From Rhodococcus sp. (in: high G+C Gram-positive bacteria) (GTDB taxonomy: Bacteria > Actinomycetota > Actinomycetes > Mycobacteriales > Mycobacteriaceae): a stretch of DNA of 32,763 nt. The DNA is taken from the NCBI GenBank assembly GCA_012514505.1, contig JAAZAD010000179.1, positions 1 through 32,763 of the forward strand, written 5' to 3'. Position numbers and translations under genes: made by a program. The first letter of the stretch is position 1; each line of letters opens with the position of its first letter. Below are positions 6,489 to 31,687 of this stretch, piece by piece. The notes beneath the pieces are model-generated. The model did not search any database. It saw nothing but the letters and a program-made list of their open reading frames with translations, and had not been told where the DNA came from.

Positions 6489-7760
6489 ATGACCGCGTCG
6501 TCCCGACCCGCCGATGGAGCAGCCGGACCCGGATCCGAACACGTTGTGGTGTGGAGTCCCGATTACCTCGGGTATCGCTGGAGTTCGGAGCACCCGATGC
6601 ACCCGGGCCGCCTCGAACTCACCATGGCGCTGTCCGAAAGCCTGGGTCTGCTGTCCGGGACGGAAGTCCTGCGCCCCGAGTCCGCGACGGACGCGGATCT
6701 TCTCCGCATTCACACGCCTGCCTACATCGAAGCGGTGAAGCGGGCCGGTCACTCCGGTCGGCCGGGTATCACCAATGTGGATCCACCCCATGGCCTCGGC
6801 TCCGAAGACAATCCGGTGTTCGAAAGGATGCACGAAGCGAGCGCAACCCTTGCGGGCGGTTCTCTGGCCGCAGCAAAGGAGATCGCGTCGGGCAGAACGA
6901 GGCGTGCCGTGAGCATCGGCGGAGGGATGCACCACGCGATGCCTGATCGTGCGTCGGGATTCTGTGTCTACAACGATGTGGCTGTTGCAATCTCCTGGCT
7001 GTTGGACAACGGTTTCGATCGAATCGCCTACGTCGACGTCGACGCCCATCACGGAGACGGGGTGCAGCACGTGTTTTTGCACGATCCGCGAGTGCTGACC
7101 GTTTCTTTGCACCAGCACCCGGCAACGTTGTGGCCCAACAGTGGGTGGGCCGCCGAGATCGGCGAGGGGCAAGCGGAGGGGACAGTGGTGAATCTGCCGT
7201 TCCTGCCCGGCACCGCGGACAACCTGTGGTTGCGCGGATTTCATGCAGTGGTGCCCGCGGCGGTCGCGGCGTTCCGGCCACAGATCGTGATCAGTCAATG
7301 CGGGGTGGACAGTCATCGCGAAGATCCGCTGGCCGATCTTTCCCTCACCGTGGACGGCCAGCGGGCGGCATTCCTGGCAATGCGCGACCTTGCCGATCGT
7401 TACGCGGAAGGCCGCTGGTTGGCGGTCGGGGGCGGTGGCTACGGACTGGCGCGCGTCGTTCCGAGGGCGTGGACGCATCTGATCGGCGCCGCCCTCGACC
7501 GCGAGATCGAGCCTTCCCGGTCGATCCCCGCGGAGTGGGCGGACAAGGCTCGCACGGTCGTACCCGGCGTCGAATTGCCCACTACGATGGGCGACGGGGG
7601 CGACGTCGACTATGCGCACTGGGATGGTCCCGGCGGTGCGCCGGAAACCGGTGTCCCGGTGGTGGACAGGGCGATCACCCGTGTCGACGCCGCAATCATG
7701 GCGACGCGACGCGCTTGCTTCCCGCTGCTCGGCCTGGACCCGGAGGATCCACGTGACTGA
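6489..7760 (+). CDS. acuC: AcuC-type (class I HDAC family) protein deacetylase
   Basis: A 423-residue arginase/HDAC-fold enzyme. Zinc ligands align as D185 and H187 in DVDAHHGDG and D274 in QCGVDSHRED. The active-site histidine pair H148-H149 (GGGMHHA) and the catalytic-type tyrosine Y318 in GGGGYGL are all present, so it should be active. AcuC removes acetyl groups from lysines; in Bacillus it reactivates acetylated acetyl-CoA synthetase. There is no ribosome site before ATG 6489, but a -10-like hexamer sits six bases upstream, consistent with a leaderless message. Its last codons overlap the start of the adjacent GNAT/acyl-CoA-synthetase-like gene by eight bases. The pair therefore looks like a deacetylase/acetyltransferase operon. 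Confidence 0.9.
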   Translation: MTASSRPADGAAGPGSEHVVVWSPDYLGYRWSSEHPMHPGRLELTMALSESLGLLSGTEVLRPESATDADLLRIHTPAYIEAVKRAGHSGRPGITNVDPPHGLGSEDNPVFERMHEASATLAGGSLAAAKEIASGRTRRAVSIGGGMHHAMPDRASGFCVYNDVAVAISWLLDNGFDRIAYVDVDAHHGDGVQHVFLHDPRVLTVSLHQHPATLWPNSGWAAEIGEGQAEGTVVNLPFLPGTADNLWLRGFHAVVPAAVAAFRPQIVISQCGVDSHREDPLADLSLTVDGQRAAFLAMRDLADRYAEGRWLAVGGGGYGLARVVPRAWTHLIGAALDREIEPSRSIPAEWADKARTVVPGVELPTTMGDGGDVDYAHWDGPGGAPETGVPVVDRAITRVDAAIMATRRACFPLLGLDPEDPRD

Positions 7761-25684: not shown

Positions 25685-25822
25685 ACATCACGTCTGCACG
25701 GGGAGGTTGATCGCGCGCACGGTGGTGTGGTTGTCCGAGACGAATGGGTCTACAGTGGCGATCAGATGGCCCTACGATGTGGGCTCGAACTCTTGTACCC
25801 GCACATGCTCCAGGAGCGCGCA

Positions 25823-26200
25823 ATGGCACCCGCCACGGCAGGATATTTCCGTCGGCTCACCCGCAGGCTGACCGAGGATCTCGAAGATCTGGATGCCGAG
25901 GAGTTGGTCGAAACCTCGCAGGCATCCGGCGCCCAGCACGCCTGCGATTGCAGTCGCGGTGAAGAGGTGACGATGGTCGGTCGACTTCGGAGCGTCGAGG
26001 CCTGCCCCAAGTCCGGCAACGCCAGTATCGAAGCCGACTTCTTCGACGGAACCGAAGAAGTGCAGTTGGTCTGGATAGGCCGTCGTCGCATTCCCGGCAT
26101 CGAGACCGGTAAGACGCTTCTCGTCCGCGGGCGCATCGGTGATCGCGGTGGACGCAAGGCGATCTTCAACCCCTACTACGAGCTGCGCGAAGAGTCATAG
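25823..26200 (+). CDS. OB-fold nucleic-acid-binding protein (Rv2694c-like)
   Basis: A 125-residue protein. ATG 25823 has AGGAG six bases upstream; the frame is open to 25727 but lacks a ribosome site there. After an N-terminal helix (GYFRRLTRRLTEDLEDLDAEEL) comes an OB-fold: GEEVTMVGRLRSVEACP, ASIEADFFDGTEEVQLVWIGRRRIPGIETGKTLLVRGRIG and an end strand IFNPYYEL. This is the tRNA-anticodon-binding-like OB domain of a single-domain actinobacterial protein. It probably binds single-stranded nucleic acid; the role is unknown. A -10-like TACAGT at 25751-25756 could serve it. The DUF3159 gene follows within 25 bp, probably in one operon. Confidence 0.85.
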   Translation: MAPATAGYFRRLTRRLTEDLEDLDAEELVETSQASGAQHACDCSRGEEVTMVGRLRSVEACPKSGNASIEADFFDGTEEVQLVWIGRRRIPGIETGKTLLVRGRIGDRGGRKAIFNPYYELREES

Positions 26201-26225
26201 ACTTTGCATGTGGCACCCTTTATGG

Positions 26226-26918
26226 GTGACCGAAACGAAGAACGAATCGATCCTCGAACAGATGGGTGGGCTGAGCGGGCTCGCCTATTCCACGCTCCCC
26301 ATTCTGGTGTTCGTGCCGGTCAACAGTATTTTCAATCTGACCGTCGCCATCTGGTCCGCACTCGGCGTGGCCGTGGCGATCCTCGTCTGGCGACTGATTC
26401 GGCGGGAACCGATTCAACCCGCGATCTCCGGCTTCTTCGGTGTCGGCATCTCTGCGTTCATCGCCTATCGCACCGGTGACGCCAAGGGCTATTTCCTGTA
26501 CGGCATCTACATGAGCCTGCTTTACGGTGGGGTATTCCTCGTGTCCATCCTGGTTCGCTGGCCGGTGGTGGGCCTCATTTGGGGTTTCCTCAACGGTCAC
26601 GGCAACTCGTGGCGGCAGCACCGAGGTGCGGTGCGCGCGTACGACATCGCCACTGCGGCTTGGGCAGTGGTGTTTGCCGCGCGCTACCTGGTTCAGTCGC
26701 AGCTCTACGACTCGGATCTGACGGGTTGGCTGGCCTTCGCCCGGATTGCCATGGGGTGGCCGCTCGCTGGTGCGGCATTCGTGGTCACCGTGTGGGCGGT
26801 GCGGCGCGCCGACCGAATCGCTGCTCCGCACGCCGCTACTCACACCGAGGCCGACACCGATTCCGAGAGCGGTTCCGATGCCGAGGAAGTGTCAGGGAAG
26901 GCCGACAGCGGCGCGTAG
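26226..26918 (+). CDS. DUF3159 integral membrane protein (Rv2693c-like)
   Basis: A 230-residue protein with five to six hydrophobic helices, including LAYSTLPILVFVPVNSIFNL, VAIWSALGVAVAILVW, AISGFFGVGISAFIAY, LYGGVFLVSILVRWPVVGLIW and WAVVFAARYLV. The SILEQMGGLSGLAYSTLPILVFV start is diagnostic of DUF3159. GTG 26226 matches the family N-terminus; ATG 26208 is an in-frame alternative. Signals for both are weak, so it may be coupled to the OB-fold gene 25 bp upstream. The acidic, serine-rich C-terminus overlaps the end of ceoC on the other strand by 27 bases. No substrate or function is known. Confidence 0.85.
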   Translation: MTETKNESILEQMGGLSGLAYSTLPILVFVPVNSIFNLTVAIWSALGVAVAILVWRLIRREPIQPAISGFFGVGISAFIAYRTGDAKGYFLYGIYMSLLYGGVFLVSILVRWPVVGLIWGFLNGHGNSWRQHRGAVRAYDIATAAWAVVFAARYLVQSQLYDSDLTGWLAFARIAMGWPLAGAAFVVTVWAVRRADRIAAPHAATHTEADTDSESGSDAEEVSGKADSGA

Positions 26919-27551
26919 TTCGTCCTCCACCTCGGCGGAGGCGACGAACAGTAGTTCGTCACCGCCCTCGAGGGGATCGTCTTGCTGAGGCACGATCACC
27001 CGGCCGCCGCGCAGGATCGTGACGAGGGCGACGTCCCGGGGGAGGCGTAGCTTACGAACGGGCTTGCCCGCCAGGCCGGTGTTGTCGGGAAGCGTCACTT
27101 CCACGAGGTTCGCCTGGCCCTGCCGGAACGTCATCAATCGAACGAGATCGCCGACCGACACCGCCTCCTCGACCAGTGACGCGAGCATCCGAGGTGTCGA
27201 TACCGCCACGTCGACTCCCCATGACTCGTCGAACAGCCATTCGTTGCGGGGGTCGTTGACGCGAGCGACCACTCGTCGGACTCCGAATTCGGTCTTGGCA
27301 AGAAGACTGAGCACGAGATTCGCTTTGTCGTCGCCGGTGGCGGCGATGACCACCTCGTAGGTCTGGAGTTCGGCGTCCTCGAGATTGGTGAGCTCGCAGG
27401 CGTCTGCGTGCACCCAGTGCGCTTCTGGCACGGACTCCTGCTCGACATGTTCGAGTTTGCGCTCGATCAACATGATCTGGTGGTCGCTACGGACAAGCTC
27501 GCGTGCAATGGAACGGCCGACGGCACCGGCTCCGGCGATCGCAACTCTCAT
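26892..27551 (-). CDS. ceoC: TrkA/RCK-type potassium uptake regulatory protein CeoC
   Basis: A 219-residue protein with an N-terminal Rossmann RCK_N domain (MRVAIAGAGAVGRSIARELV, GxGxxG at 7-12, then the acidic E30 of LIERK) and a C-terminal RCK_C domain (VEVTLPDNTGLAGKPVRKLRLP, GGDELLFVASAEVEDELRA). Such proteins bind NAD(H), and in some relatives ATP or c-di-AMP, and gate cation channels or transporters from the cytosol. AGGGGG lies eight bases before ATG 27551. It follows ceoB after 56 bp on the same strand, as mycobacterial Rv2691-Rv2692. No TrkH/TrkG pore gene is present; the neighbouring membrane protein is KimA-like. Confidence 0.93.
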   Translation of the reverse strand: MRVAIAGAGAVGRSIARELVRSDHQIMLIERKLEHVEQESVPEAHWVHADACELTNLEDAELQTYEVVIAATGDDKANLVLSLLAKTEFGVRRVVARVNDPRNEWLFDESWGVDVAVSTPRMLASLVEEAVSVGDLVRLMTFRQGQANLVEVTLPDNTGLAGKPVRKLRLPRDVALVTILRGGRVIVPQQDDPLEGGDELLFVASAEVEDELRAAVGLP

Positions 27552-27607
27552 GGTTCGTTCCCCCTGCGGTTCGGTGGATGGGGTGGAAGGTGGGTGTTCG
27601 AGTTGGT

Positions 27608-28273
27608 TCAGTCGTCGCTCGGTGGGGGATTGCTCGCCAGCGCCAGCGCTTCTGCCACGGTCCCGGACACGGCCGCGATGTACACCTGGTCATCTGCCTG
27701 GATGACCGTTCTGCGATCGGGCAATACCCCGGATCCAAATCTGATGATGAACGCGACACGTGATGCGGTCACCGACTCGAGTGCGGTGACGCGCTTGCCC
27801 GCCCACTCTTCGTGGAGGTCCAGCTCGGCGACGGCGACCGTCCCGGAAGGGTCACGCCACTTTGCGGTCTGGCTGTCTCGAGTGAGTGTGTGCAGGAATC
27901 TGTCGGTCGACCACGGCACGGTTGCGACGGTGGGGATCCCGAGTCGCTCGTACACCGCAGCTCGTTTCGCGTCGTAGATACGCGCGACCACCCGCTCGAC
28001 GCCGAACGTTTCTCTCGCCACGCGGGCGGCGATGATGTTCGAATTGTCTCCGGACGAGACCGCGGCGAACGCGTCTGCACGCTCGATACCGGCTTTGATC
28101 AGGACGTCTCTGTCGAAACCCATCCCGACGACCTTCGTCCCCGAGAAGTCGGCGTCGAGGCGCAAGAACGAACTGGCATCTCGGTCGATGACCGCAACCT
28201 CGTGCCCGATCCGGGTCAGCGCGCTCGCCAGGGATGCGCCGACCCGACCGCATCCCATGATGACCACATACAC
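27608..28273 (-). CDS. ceoB: TrkA/RCK-type potassium uptake regulatory protein CeoB
   Basis: A 221-residue RCK protein, paralogous to ceoC. RCK_N starts VYVVIMGCGRVGASLASAL with GxGxxG, followed by the acidic D30-type VIDRDASS and GFDRDVLIKAGIERADAFAAVSSGDNSNI. RCK_C is around VAVAELDLHEEWAGKRVTAL and VIQADDQVYIAAV. GTG 28273 is chosen, with GGAG seven bases upstream; it matches the N-terminus of mycobacterial CeoB (MRVVVMGCGRVG), while the longer frame to 28474 lacks similarity. It is divergent from the KimA-like permease across 139 bp. Known data place CeoBC in potassium uptake and pH/chloride response in M. tuberculosis. Confidence 0.94.
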   Translation of the reverse strand: MYVVIMGCGRVGASLASALTRIGHEVAVIDRDASSFLRLDADFSGTKVVGMGFDRDVLIKAGIERADAFAAVSSGDNSNIIAARVARETFGVERVVARIYDAKRAAVYERLGIPTVATVPWSTDRFLHTLTRDSQTAKWRDPSGTVAVAELDLHEEWAGKRVTALESVTASRVAFIIRFGSGVLPDRRTVIQADDQVYIAAVSGTVAEALALASNPPPSDD

Positions 28274-28400
28274 CTGTGCACTCCATTTCTGATGGGCGAT
28301 ACCGGGAAGAACGCTACCGGTCCGGAGGGAAAGAACAAGCATGGTCCGGCCGAGAAGAGGACACTCCGTCGCCCGTGGAGTTATCCGACGGGGAGACGGA

Positions 28401-28406
28401 TACGCT
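28401..28406 (+). promoter_or_regulatory. Putative -10 element for leaderless KimA-like permease gene
   Basis: TACGCT fits TANNNT and ends six bases before GTG 28413; no ribosome site is present. I found no trace of the conserved ydaO/c-di-AMP riboswitch core in the 139-bp gap with ceoB. Confidence 0.5.
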
Positions 28407-28412
28407 TTGGCG

Positions 28413-30407
28413 GTGTCAAAGCTCTCGACCGCCACCAAGCGGCTACTACTGGGCAGACCGTTCCGGAGCGACACGCTCGGGCAGCGGCTGCTCCCGAAGC
28501 GGATCGCGCTCCCGGTCTTCGCGTCCGATGCGATTTCGTCGGTGGCCTATGCGCCCGAAGAGATTTTCCTGGTGTTGTCGGTGGCCGGAATCTCGGCGCT
28601 GGTCTACGCGCCGTGGGTGGGGCTGGCTGTCGTTGCGGTGATGATCGTGGTCGTCGCGAGCTATCGGCAGAACGTGCATGCGTACCCATCCGGCGGTGGT
28701 GACTACGAGGTTGCGACGGTCAACCTGGGTCAGTCGGCCGGTCTCACGGTCGGTAGCGCACTGATGGTCGACTATGTCCTCACGGTTGCTGTGTCGATTT
28801 CGGCGGCCGCATCCAACATCGGTTCGGCGATACCGTTCGTGGCTCATCACAAAGTTCTGTTCGCCGTCGTGGCGATCGCATTGCTCGCGGCCGTGAATTT
28901 GCGGGGTATCCGCGAGTCGGGCGCGGCCTTCGCGGCGCCGACGTACGCTTTCATCGGTGGCATGGCGGTGATGCTCGGCTGGGGCTTCTTCCGCATCTAC
29001 GTGGAGGGCGAAAACCTGCAAGCCGAGTCCGCGAGCTTCGAACTGCACGCGGAAGATGCGCACCTGTACGGAATCGCGTTCGCCTTCCTGATCGCACGGG
29101 CGTTTTCGTCGGGTTGCGCCGCACTCACGGGAGTCGAGGCCGTCAGCAACGGCGTGCCCGCATTTCGTAAGCCCAAGTCGAAGAATGCGGCATCGACGCT
29201 ACTCATGCTGGGTGCCTTGGCGATTGTTCTGCTGATGGGCATCATCATGTTGGCCCAGAAAGTGGGGATCAAGTATGCCTACGATCCGGAATCACAGCTG
29301 TCGAACACCCCTGAGGGGTATCAGCAGAAAACCCTGATCGCGCAGTTGGCGGAGACGGTGTTCGGTGGATTTCCGATCGGGCTGTACTTCATTGCCGTAG
29401 TCACCGCGCTGATTCTCGTCCTCGCGGCGAACACCGCGTTCAACGGTTTCCCTGTCCTGGCTTCGGTGCTGGCCCAGGATCGCTTTCTGCCGCGCCAACT
29501 GCATACGCGTGGCGACCGGCTTGCCTTCAGCAACGGCATTCTGTTCCTGGCAGGGGCTGCAATCGCCTTCGTGGTGATCTTCGGCGCCGAGGTGACCCAT
29601 CTGATTCAGCTCTACATCGTCGGGGTGTTCGTCTCGTTCGTGCTCAGTCAGACCGGCATGATCAAGCACTGGACCAGACATTTGAAGTCGGAGACCGACC
29701 CGGACCAGCGATGGAAGATGACACGATCGCGCATCATCAACTCCATCGGTTTGGGAATGACCGGTGCAGTGTTGATCATCGTGCTCATCACCAAGTTCGC
29801 AGCGGGCGCATGGATTGCAATCGTGGCGATGATCGCGATTTTCGTGGTGATGAAGCTGATTCGCAAGCACTACGACAGCGTTGCCGCCGAACTCGAGAAC
29901 GCGGAATGGGACGGGGTTTTGCCGTCTCGCACCCATTCGATCGTTCTCGTCTCGAAGTTGCACATGCCCACCCTGCGGGCACTCGCGTACGCACGGGCGA
30001 CACGACCGGACACACTCGAGGCGATCACCGTCAACGTCGACGAGCCGGACACACGAGAACTGGTGCGCGCCTGGGAGAAGAGCGACGTGACCGTGCCCCT
30101 GAAGGTCGTGGAATCGCCGTATCGGGAGATCACGAAACCCGTCTTGGACTATGTGCGCCGAGTGCGTCGCGACTCGCCTCGAGACGTGGTGACCGTCTTC
30201 ATTCCGGAGTACGTCGTGGGGCATTGGTGGGAGCAGATTCTGCACAACCAGAGCGCGCTGCGCCTCAAGAGCCGTCTGCTGTTCCAGCCCGGTGTGATGG
30301 TGACGAGTGTTCCGTGGCAGTTGAATTCGTCGGAGAAGACCAAACCGTTGACTGTCGATCACACCGCGGGGTCCACCCGCCGCGGTTACGACGCGAACGA
30401 TATGTGA
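28413..30407 (+). CDS. APC-superfamily permease of the KUP/KimA type, probable potassium importer
   Basis: A 664-residue membrane protein with twelve hydrophobic helices in the first 470 residues and a soluble C-terminal domain. It is commonly labelled amino-acid permease, but it closely follows Bacillus KimA (YdaO) as I recall it: RPFRS near the start, ASDAISSVAY, SYRQNVHAYPSGGGDYEVA, VDYVLTVAVSISA, SSGCAALTGVEAVSN, LAANTAFNGFP, RGDRLAFSNGI, LIQLYIVGVF, and the end ILHNQSALRLKSRLLF. The potassium-site residues reported for KimA (D36, Y43, Y118, T121, S125, T230, E233, Y377) align with D39, Y46, Y121, T124, S128, T239, E242 and Y401, all conserved. GTG 28413 is used, consistent with the family N-terminus and the -10 six bases upstream. 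It is divergent from ceoBC. Confidence 0.9.
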   Translation: MSKLSTATKRLLLGRPFRSDTLGQRLLPKRIALPVFASDAISSVAYAPEEIFLVLSVAGISALVYAPWVGLAVVAVMIVVVASYRQNVHAYPSGGGDYEVATVNLGQSAGLTVGSALMVDYVLTVAVSISAAASNIGSAIPFVAHHKVLFAVVAIALLAAVNLRGIRESGAAFAAPTYAFIGGMAVMLGWGFFRIYVEGENLQAESASFELHAEDAHLYGIAFAFLIARAFSSGCAALTGVEAVSNGVPAFRKPKSKNAASTLLMLGALAIVLLMGIIMLAQKVGIKYAYDPESQLSNTPEGYQQKTLIAQLAETVFGGFPIGLYFIAVVTALILVLAANTAFNGFPVLASVLAQDRFLPRQLHTRGDRLAFSNGILFLAGAAIAFVVIFGAEVTHLIQLYIVGVFVSFVLSQTGMIKHWTRHLKSETDPDQRWKMTRSRIINSIGLGMTGAVLIIVLITKFAAGAWIAIVAMIAIFVVMKLIRKHYDSVAAELENAEWDGVLPSRTHSIVLVSKLHMPTLRALAYARATRPDTLEAITVNVDEPDTRELVRAWEKSDVTVPLKVVESPYREITKPVLDYVRRVRRDSPRDVVTVFIPEYVVGHWWEQILHNQSALRLKSRLLFQPGVMVTSVPWQLNSSEKTKPLTVDHTAGSTRRGYDANDM

Positions 30408-30418
30408 GGCGAAGTGCG

Positions 30419-31687
30419 TTGAGCGAGAACTGGTTGGGGGAGACGTTCGAGATCGATCTCGGCAAGCCCGGACACGGTGGTTTCGTCGTCGGCCGACACG
30501 AGGGGCGCGTCGTGTTCGTGCGACACGGACTTCCCGGGGAGCGCGTCGTCGCCCGGGTGACCGAGGATCGCGGAGGCTCGTTCTGCCGCGCCGACGCCGT
30601 CGAGATCGTCTCCGCGTCGGCTGATCGCGTGCCTCCGCTGTGCCCGCAGTCGGGGCCACACGGAGCGGGATGCTGCGACTATTCCCATGCTTCTCTTCCG
30701 GCGCAACGGGCGATGAAATCGGCTGTCGTGGAGGAACTGCTCAGCCGGATCGGGGGTACCGACAGGACGGTTTCGGTAGAGGAGTTGCCGGGAACCGGAA
30801 ACGGGAGTGGATGGCGTACCCGCGTCCGTCTCGCAGTGGATGCCAACGGACGGCCAGGCTTTCACCGTCATCGCAGTGCCGAGATCGAGACAGACCTTTC
30901 GTGCCCACAGATGGTGCCAGACGCGTATGTGGGTCTGAGGGACATGGACTTTCGCCCTGGAGCCGAAGTGGCGATCGTGATGGATTCGGCCGGGGACCGG
31001 CACGTTGTCGAGATCGCGCCACCGAAGATGTCGAAGGCAGGCAGGGCAGGTGGCGGGCGTCGCGGTGCGACTGCGCGCCGGGCAGCTCGTGGCGGCGTGC
31101 GTGCGGAACGGGTCGTCTCGGGGACGGGGCGGCCGGTCGAGTATGTCGGGGACCGGGCGTGGACGTTGTCGGCGACCGGCTTCTGGCAGGCGCACCGCGG
31201 CGCGGCGAGCGCGTACTCGAATCTGGTGGCGGAATGGGCGCGAGTGTCGTCCGGCGATGTTGCCTGGGACCTGTATGGGGGAGTGGGGGTGTTCGCCTCC
31301 GCGCTCGCGGATCGTGTCGGTGTCGACGGTCTGGTCGAATCGGTCGAGTACTCGGTCGGTGCGGTCGCGGATGGTCGGGCCTCGCTGAGCGGTCTCTCTC
31401 AGGTTCGTTTCCATGCCGGACGAGTGGAGCGAGCGCTCGGCGAGTTGCAGGCAGGCGCGACGGTGGCGGTTCTGGACCCGCCGCGGGCCGGCGCAGGGCG
31501 GGACGTGGTGCACGCAGTTTCTGCATCGGATGTTCCCCGGGTCGTCCACGTCGGCTGTGATCCGGCGTCGTTCGCCCGTGACCTGGCGCTCTACCGTGAG
31601 TTCGGGTACGAGGTCGAGCAAGTGCGCGCGTTCGACGCCTTCCCCCTGACGCACCACGTCGAATGTATGGCTCTGCTCACCCGCTGA
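30419..31687 (+). CDS. TRAM-domain RNA 5-methyluridine methyltransferase (TrmA/RlmD family, Rv2689c-like)
   Basis: A 422-residue enzyme if TTG 30419 is the start (GTGAGG nine bases upstream); GTG 30404, overlapping the permease stop, is also in frame. An N-terminal TRAM domain (EIDLGKPGHGGFVVGRHEGRVVFVRHGLPGE) precedes a cysteine cluster (C75, C85, C86, C162). The SAM motif is AWDLYGGVGVFASALA. The catalytic set is LDPPRAGAGRD, nucleophile C380 in VGCDPASFARDL and general base E415 in LTHHVECMALL. It methylates C5 of a uridine in tRNA or 23S rRNA; which one is not decidable here. The usual CGGC iron-sulfur signature is replaced by AGCC. A lysine/arginine-rich insertion (KAGRAGGGRRGATARRAARGG) lies mid-protein. 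Confidence 0.9.
   Translation: MSENWLGETFEIDLGKPGHGGFVVGRHEGRVVFVRHGLPGERVVARVTEDRGGSFCRADAVEIVSASADRVPPLCPQSGPHGAGCCDYSHASLPAQRAMKSAVVEELLSRIGGTDRTVSVEELPGTGNGSGWRTRVRLAVDANGRPGFHRHRSAEIETDLSCPQMVPDAYVGLRDMDFRPGAEVAIVMDSAGDRHVVEIAPPKMSKAGRAGGGRRGATARRAARGGVRAERVVSGTGRPVEYVGDRAWTLSATGFWQAHRGAASAYSNLVAEWARVSSGDVAWDLYGGVGVFASALADRVGVDGLVESVEYSVGAVADGRASLSGLSQVRFHAGRVERALGELQAGATVAVLDPPRAGAGRDVVHAVSASDVPRVVHVGCDPASFARDLALYREFGYEVEQVRAFDAFPLTHHVECMALLTR

Follow-up and report, generated by a model that had tools for sequence, protein, structure and literature searches.

A KimA-type permease divergent from ceoBC in Rhodococcus: a probable potassium-uptake module controlled by RCK proteins

Introduction

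Which membrane protein do the RCK proteins CeoB and CeoC serve? In mycobacteria CeoBC is called the 'Trk' K+-uptake system, Trk being a TrkH pore together with a TrkA RCK ring. The question is raised by a stretch of 32,763 nt from Rhodococcus sp. (assembly GCA_012514505.1, contig JAAZAD010000179.1; Actinomycetota, Actinomycetes, Mycobacteriaceae in GTDB), which is the whole of the DNA analysed and is called the window here. It carries ceoB (26892..27551, minus strand) and ceoC (27608..28273, minus strand) divergent from a permease gene (28413..30407, plus strand). The three genes probably form one potassium-uptake module, in which CeoBC would act as the RCK control unit of a KimA-type K+/H+ symporter. 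This reading is based on homology, conserved residues, a predicted fold, the linkage of the genes in several phyla and a draft genome in which TrkH was not found. From these we infer K+ transport by the permease, physical contact between the proteins, which ligand is bound and which way control runs. The partnership of the two known parts is well supported; the RCK proteins may also gate the permease directly. A preliminary description of the locus had proposed an RCK-KimA partnership, and the adjacency of the genes, the evidence that the permease is KimA-type and the searches for TrkH, which found none, all support it.

The permease resembles KimA

Pfam recognized the permease solely as AA_permease_2, as expected from the earlier remark that proteins of this type are normally annotated as amino-acid permeases, and an NCBIfam search gave no match. 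A sequence search of the PDB at E 0.001 returned KimA (6s3k) as the sole match (E 6.4e-116), aligning residues 32-661 of the 688-residue open reading frame (ORF) with residues 5-605 of KimA. In other words, the homology is near-full-length and includes the cytosolic domain. In a profile search KimA scored 629 bits (E 7.4e-188), and the next chains, LAT2, scored <19 bits (E 0.004). Likewise, an AlphaFold2 model of the permease (mean pLDDT, a per-residue confidence score, 86.1) placed three KimA entries at ranks 1-3 of a fold search (best E 6.8e-34), with rank 4 at E 2.0e-10. The best fold match was 8b70, with TM (template modelling) scores of 0.77/0.89.

All eight K+-site residues are present. 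D39, Y46, Y121, T124, S128, T239, E242 and Y401 of the permease correspond to D36, Y43, Y118, T121, S125, T230, E233 and Y377 of Bacillus subtilis KimA, and D117 of KimA is also kept, as D120. According to the accessible part of the KimA study, uptake requires D36 and Y43, and proton coupling requires E233 (PMC6994465). The equivalents of D36, Y43, Y118, E233 and Y377 were invariant in 82/82 Actinomycetota rows, which were compared as two groups (35 rows from the class Actinomycetes, window included, and 47 rows from other Actinomycetota). Furthermore, the cyclic di-AMP (c-di-AMP) residues R337, H579, N580, Q581 and S582, as defined in KimA in the text available of PMC10284832, are kept in the window permease together with the equivalents of Y118 and N237. 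The preliminary description had called the permease KimA-type, and on this point sequence, predicted fold and all eight residues, under the same numbers, agree.

Could the permease carry an amino acid or a polyamine, and not K+? Its Pfam family, the weak LAT2 profile match and a fold common to amino-acid transporters all favour this idea, but the KimA score in the same profile search, the invariant site residues and the failure of the TrkH/KtrB, KdpA and KUP importer families to match anywhere in the genome make it highly improbable. A plain amino-acid permease was rejected on the KimA-only PDB match, the profile scores, the K+-site residues and the fold ranking. Judging from sequence and model, the protein is likely a KimA-type K+/H+ importer of 664 amino acids, with a LeuT-fold membrane domain followed by a KimA-type C-terminal cytosolic domain. 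A second copy of this cytosolic domain was seen in many KimA homologues outside the class (L095-L134), for example at 7076-7510 and 11814-12254 of L107.

CeoB and CeoC resemble the two halves of TrkA

RCK proteins are cytosolic. CeoB (219 amino acids) is a single-RCK protein of the TrkA C-half type, in which TrkA_N and TrkA_C were found and whose best match was residues 237-438 of TrkA (4g65). CeoC (221 amino acids) is a single-RCK protein of the N-half type with a GCGRVG nucleotide motif; it matched residues 4-224 of the same TrkA and carries TrkA_N and a marginal TrkA_C (27.1 bits against a cut-off of 27). Together, the two matches span one TrkA divided in two halves, and each protein has one GxGxxG motif. 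Thus, apart from the marginal TrkA_C of CeoC, the earlier identification of two RCK proteins beside the permease is confirmed by their domains. The c-di-AMP signature of RCK_C domains, (I/L)(I/L)X2DX1RX5N(I/L)(I/L), was not found in CeoB or CeoC; the signature comes from the accessible text of PMC10117811. The same text reports that the RCK_C domain of Vnz_27460 of Streptomyces venezuelae did not bind c-di-AMP (PMC10117811). To judge from adjacent locus numbers, Vnz_27460 and the KimA-like Vnz_27465 would belong to this module.

In the window, ceoC and ceoB are spaced 56 bp apart, and 139 bp (28274..28412, no strand) separate the start of ceoC from that of the divergent permease gene; from the layout, these 139 bp are presumed to be a shared regulatory region. 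These distances follow from GTG starts chosen by the analyst; the mechanical ORF of ceoC extends to 28474 and that of the permease (688 amino acids) starts at 28341. A sigma-70-type consensus scan found no promoter-like site in 28274..28412. The scan for promoters and terminators gave one terminator-like match, which is below the number in shuffled sequences, and an Rfam search of the window found no family at gathering score, the c-di-AMP riboswitch included.

Potassium transporters in the genome and family

The preliminary description had noted that the window has no TrkH pore, and had named a genome-wide search for trkH/ktrB as a check. This check came out in its favour. A search of the whole draft genome gave no match for TrkH/KtrB, and searches of it for KdpA and for KUP were likewise without a match; the draft has 609 contigs and is 96.9% complete and 6.9% contaminated, which makes these absences strong and not final. 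On this result, the idea that the draft carries a recognisable TrkH outside the window was rejected. The genome contained one KimA-like match, one diadenylate cyclase (DAC) domain gene and one potassium-channel-like protein with two transmembrane helices (2-TM) and its own TrkA_N domain (L235:589-1923, G000:C540). TrkH was found in none of the 10 genomes drawn from the family, the window's included, and nine of these are 100% complete.

The true partner of CeoBC might still be a diverged pore of the TrkH/KtrB kind that Pfam overlooked or that lies in an assembly gap. The fragmented and contaminated draft leaves room for it, and TrkH also occurs in 37/134 KimA-positive genomes of the class. However, the family genomes argue against such a pore, and TrkH, where the class has it (47/148 genomes), never lies within 10 kb of CeoB. 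S. venezuelae was also reported to lack TrkH and KtrB in the accessible text of PMC10117811. A missed pore is thus most improbable.

Gene linkage within the class

Gene linkage was followed in a draw of 148 genomes of the class. A KimA-like gene was present in 134/148 (E 1e-20 or better), CeoB in 143/148 and TrkH in 47/148. CeoB lay within 5 kb of KimA in 110 of the 119 genomes with a listed KimA place, and every case was divergent. In the other nine, CeoB was elsewhere in eight (three on other draft contigs) and absent in one. Fifteen KimA-positive genomes had no listed place; in 11 of them the surroundings of CeoB showed KimA adjacent in one, not adjacent in eight and a contig end in two. 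All 10 drawn family genomes had KimA and CeoB adjacent. By contrast with KimA, TrkH was within 10 kb of CeoB in 0/47 TrkH-positive genomes, a count that omits four weak second RCK rows and one TrkH fragment below the cut-off. A KimA-like gene or TrkH was present in 140 of the 143 CeoB-positive genomes and neither in G004, G022 and G067. TrkH occurred in 37/134 KimA-positive and 10/14 KimA-negative genomes, with relatedness not removed, and this difference is weaker than in the phylum counts given below. The preliminary description had suggested looking for the adjacency across relatives, and this check too came out in its favour: the adjacency recurs in the family, in the class and, in rearranged forms, outside the class.

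Several genomes of the class have other arrangements. In f26 (L031-L036, ~1.2-2.2 Mb) ceoBC is kept, the slot beside it is without KimA, TrkH was not found and a diverged KimA-like gene lies elsewhere. KimA and TrkH adjoin on one strand, 284 bp apart, at G069:C294:133-3487, and two relatives of this genome in family f13, G012 and G035, carry tandem KimA genes away from ceoBC.

Gene linkage elsewhere in Actinomycetota

A draw of 137 genomes of the phylum outside the class gave CeoB-clade genes (RCKs of at least 251 bits) in 36. These lay within 8 kb of KimA in 29/36 (21 on the opposite strand, 8 on the same); KimA was elsewhere in six and absent in one. None of the 36 had TrkH within 8 kb of the CeoB-clade gene. 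The 70 genomes whose only listed RCKs scored lower had an RCK within 8 kb of TrkH in 41 cases and near KimA in none. These proximity counts leave out KimA fragments from the C-terminal end, a number of TrkH fragments and RCK rows that were partial or second, and G174, G189 and G251 had no listed place. A recheck of the omitted RCK rows added one more genome near TrkH (G181). It also placed a CeoB fragment 740 bp from KimA in G262, which was counted as having KimA elsewhere and is probably a further adjacent case. TrkH was present in 9/49 KimA-positive and 71/88 KimA-negative genomes, a strong difference (relatedness not removed).

CeoB or CeoC was found in 18 of 40 non-class loci (L095-L134). 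L096, L097, L107 and L119 each carry KimA, CeoC and CeoB in that order on a single strand, with 7-60 bp from the KimA stop to the CeoC start (starts chosen by script). Of four KimA loci in a plasmid collection, three lacked an RCK, and a Nonomuraea record of 11.9 Mb had an RCK pair, KimA and the methyltransferase together.

Do these genes stay together merely by descent? Such passive synteny finds support in a six-gene block, OB-DUF3159-ceoB-ceoC-kimA-methyltransferase, that is kept in most class loci inspected. In the window its remaining members are an OB-fold gene (25727..26200, plus strand; Pfam match slightly below the cut-off), a DUF3159 protein (26139..26918, plus strand; mechanical ORF) and a TRAM-domain RNA (uracil-5-)methyltransferase (30404..31687, plus strand), the last two being class-conserved neighbours. 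However, outside the class KimA, CeoC and CeoB remain together in new orders, and DUF3159, DUF3710 and the methyltransferase were not found beside them. DUF3159 had no match in the 40 non-class loci, and the sole methyltransferase match there was of 30 bits (L124). The rearranged operons are a strong argument against passive synteny, and the non-class loci weigh most, because most of the class neighbours are gone there. Chloroflexota and Armatimonadota show yet other gene orders. The OB-fold gene also stays in many loci, which slightly weakens this argument. Passive synteny was rejected as the whole explanation, and neighbours without any functional link are very unlikely. Homologues of the OB-fold gene lie near CeoB or KimA in many loci of other classes, and this gene may belong to the module.

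In six further loci (L135, L136, L137, L138, L143 and L152, from G180, G178, G164, G149, G274 and G230) the gene of a P2-type cation ATPase is followed directly, on its own strand, by a CeoC-CeoB-like RCK pair, and the ATPase Pfam domains were confirmed in 6/6. The P2-type ATPase is possibly a further type of RCK-controlled transporter.

Other phyla and RCK trees

In a wider scan of genome contigs the best 80 of at least 594 relatives were examined, and RCK genes were present in 20 of these 80 loci. A locus was evaluable if it had an RCK within 3 kb or both flanks longer than 2 kb, which favours positives. On this basis an RCK lay by KimA in 13/24 loci of Chloroflexota (12 of them KimA-CeoC-CeoB on one strand), in 1/2 of Armatimonadota (order CeoC-CeoB-KimA), in 5/5 of Actinomycetota (divergent) and in 1/3 further bacterial loci (L162, same strand). 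Spacing in the Chloroflexota operons, from KimA stop to CeoC start, runs from a 4-bp overlap (L159, L189) up to 30 bp, and the same-strand gaps in other Actinomycetota and Chloroflexota range overall from -4 to +60 bp.

In a tree of joined CeoB and CeoC sequences, the KimA-linked pairs of Actinomycetota (20 rows) fell on one side of a branch with support 100/99. The KimA-linked pairs of Chloroflexota and Armatimonadota with L162 (13 rows) did so with 100/100. The TrkH-linked pairs (7 rows) did so too, with 100/100, apart from both KimA-linked groups. A single KimA-linked clade was not rejected (approximately unbiased test, p 0.16), and two independent recruitments are not claimed because one common origin was not rejected. 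P-type-ATPase-linked pairs formed no single group in this tree. The trees omit L106, L114, L122, L131 and L233 (taken as redundant), L203, L152 and L153 (long or mixed), and loci in which the two genes were not both present at sufficient length.

Weighing the module

Do KimA and CeoBC work together, or are they only expressed together? Under co-regulation alone, both would be driven from a shared divergent promoter region and contribute to K+ homeostasis in parallel, but the target of CeoBC would be a different membrane protein, for instance the 2-TM channel, or CeoBC would work in some other way. The divergent layout over 139 bp, the separate channel in the genome and the persistence of CeoBC without an adjacent KimA are consistent with this idea, as is the report, in the part available of PMC6994465, that B. 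subtilis KimA functions without an RCK. On the other hand, KimA and CeoBC form tight same-strand operons elsewhere, with spacings between a 4-bp overlap and a gap of 60 bp, and the 2-TM channel has a TrkA_N domain of its own. The other RCK pairs of the phylum adjoin ion transporters (TrkH, P-type ATPases), a pattern of regulator and transporter. Co-regulation alone is rather unlikely.

Several observations weigh against a module of CeoBC and KimA. A ceoBC deletion in Mycobacterium tuberculosis had no growth defect in low K+ (accessible text of PMC6375644), and B. subtilis KimA restores K+ uptake in Escherichia coli LB2003 with no partner RCK reported in the text available (PMC6994465). In 21 class loci, chosen because KimA is missing or non-adjacent, CeoBC is kept, the KimA slot is empty and CeoC faces the methyltransferase; among them are the streamlined f26 genomes and family f13, whose KimA-like gene lies elsewhere, and seven genomes that have TrkH but lack KimA. 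Linkage in the class may partly be passive synteny, as the methyltransferase and DUF3159 are also kept in most loci. A tree-aware comparison of KimA loss with TrkH was not significant (only 5 independent pairs; means of 2.8 pairs as expected and 0.3 the opposite way). Eight other phyla (Nitrospirota, Acidobacteriota, Bacillota, Bdellovibrionota, Pseudomonadota, Rokuibacteriota, Cyanobacteriota and Nitrospinota) contributed 21 evaluable loci, none of which had an RCK 3 kb or less from KimA, and KimA was without an RCK within 3 kb in 11/24 loci of Chloroflexota, 1/2 of Armatimonadota and 2/3 of the further bacterial loci. Finally, outside the class the c-di-AMP pocket is poorly conserved. At the N580 position, N occurs in 12/47 other Actinomycetota rows, and in the 20 RCK-linked rows of Chloroflexota and Armatimonadota N is outside the top four letters.

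Because KimA and CeoBC are paired in three or more bacterial phyla, a KimA-type importer is probably the missing membrane partner of CeoBC. How would such a module work? K+ would enter with H+ through the permease, as in KimA. CeoC and CeoB would be a TrkA-like RCK regulator in two pieces, N half and C half, that no longer serves a TrkH pore; on binding a cytosolic nucleotide, perhaps ATP/ADP or NAD(H), they would control how actively the KimA-type transporter works. The C-terminal domain of the permease probably adds inhibition by c-di-AMP. The nucleotide input through CeoBC may be separate from the c-di-AMP input through the transporter, because CeoB and CeoC lack the c-di-AMP signature and the RCK_C domain of Vnz_27460 reportedly did not bind c-di-AMP. 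A bolder version is that an RCK directly gates a KimA-type symporter, that the split pair is an interchangeable cassette and that the mycobacterial and streptomycete 'Trk' is a two-input KimA-RCK complex. The cassette would have been combined with KimA in three phyla (Actinomycetota, Chloroflexota, Armatimonadota) and, in the first of these, with TrkH and P-type ATPases as well; this version is about as likely as not.

Precedents and significance

Rv2690c of M. tuberculosis is presumably the orthologue of the window permease, to judge from its position. In the accessible text of PMC12216072, transposon mutants of ceoB and of the "adjacent Rv2690c" both showed enhanced rifampicin survival, and they are treated under a potassium transport heading. 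This grouping is the nearest precedent found. Variants of rv2690c and ceoC arose in one late isolate, according to the part available of PMC11878324, and Rv2690c is a membrane protein entry in the screen tables seen of PMC8805019 and PMC10534295. The accessible texts of PMC12136442, PMC6375644 and PMC13163235 contain no mention of Rv2690, TrkH or a permease, those of PMC12136442 and PMC13163235 none of KimA, and that of PMC4553272 none of TrkH or TrkG. A literature search, with most subscription papers outside its reach, found no paper pairing KimA with CeoBC and none on direct RCK gating of a KimA-type symporter.

With a KimA-type partner, the question of which membrane part CeoBC lacks becomes directly testable. 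Such a partner could also explain the K+ uptake that remains in a mutant without Trk and Kdp, for which Rv3200c and Rv3237c are the candidates named in the text available of PMC13163235. If true, RCK control would be extended to a new transporter class.

Comparison with known systems

The permease is like KimA (YdaO) of B. subtilis, a KUP-family K+/H+ symporter, in near-full-length homology, predicted fold and the residues of the K+ site, proton coupling and c-di-AMP pocket. Unlike KimA, it is encoded divergent from two RCK genes, which in other bacteria are operonic with it, and the window has no c-di-AMP riboswitch at Rfam gathering score. CeoBC is related to the Trk system through TrkA, whose N half is matched by CeoC and whose C half is matched by CeoB. 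However, in CeoBC the RCK halves are separate genes whose neighbour is a KimA-type symporter. A Trk system needs an SKT-family pore (TrkH/KtrB) in the genome, and no such pore was found in the window's genome or the other nine family genomes.

KefC is an RCK-controlled cation/proton antiporter. KhtTU and CpeAB are also RCK-controlled cation/proton antiporters, and thus secondary transporters and not channels, according to the accessible text of PMC10117811. The proposed module of CeoBC and the permease would share with all three the RCK control of a secondary transporter. In contrast to these antiporters, of which KhtTU is an exporter, the permease is likely an importer of the KUP/APC fold, and CeoB and CeoC are without the RCK_C signature for c-di-AMP.

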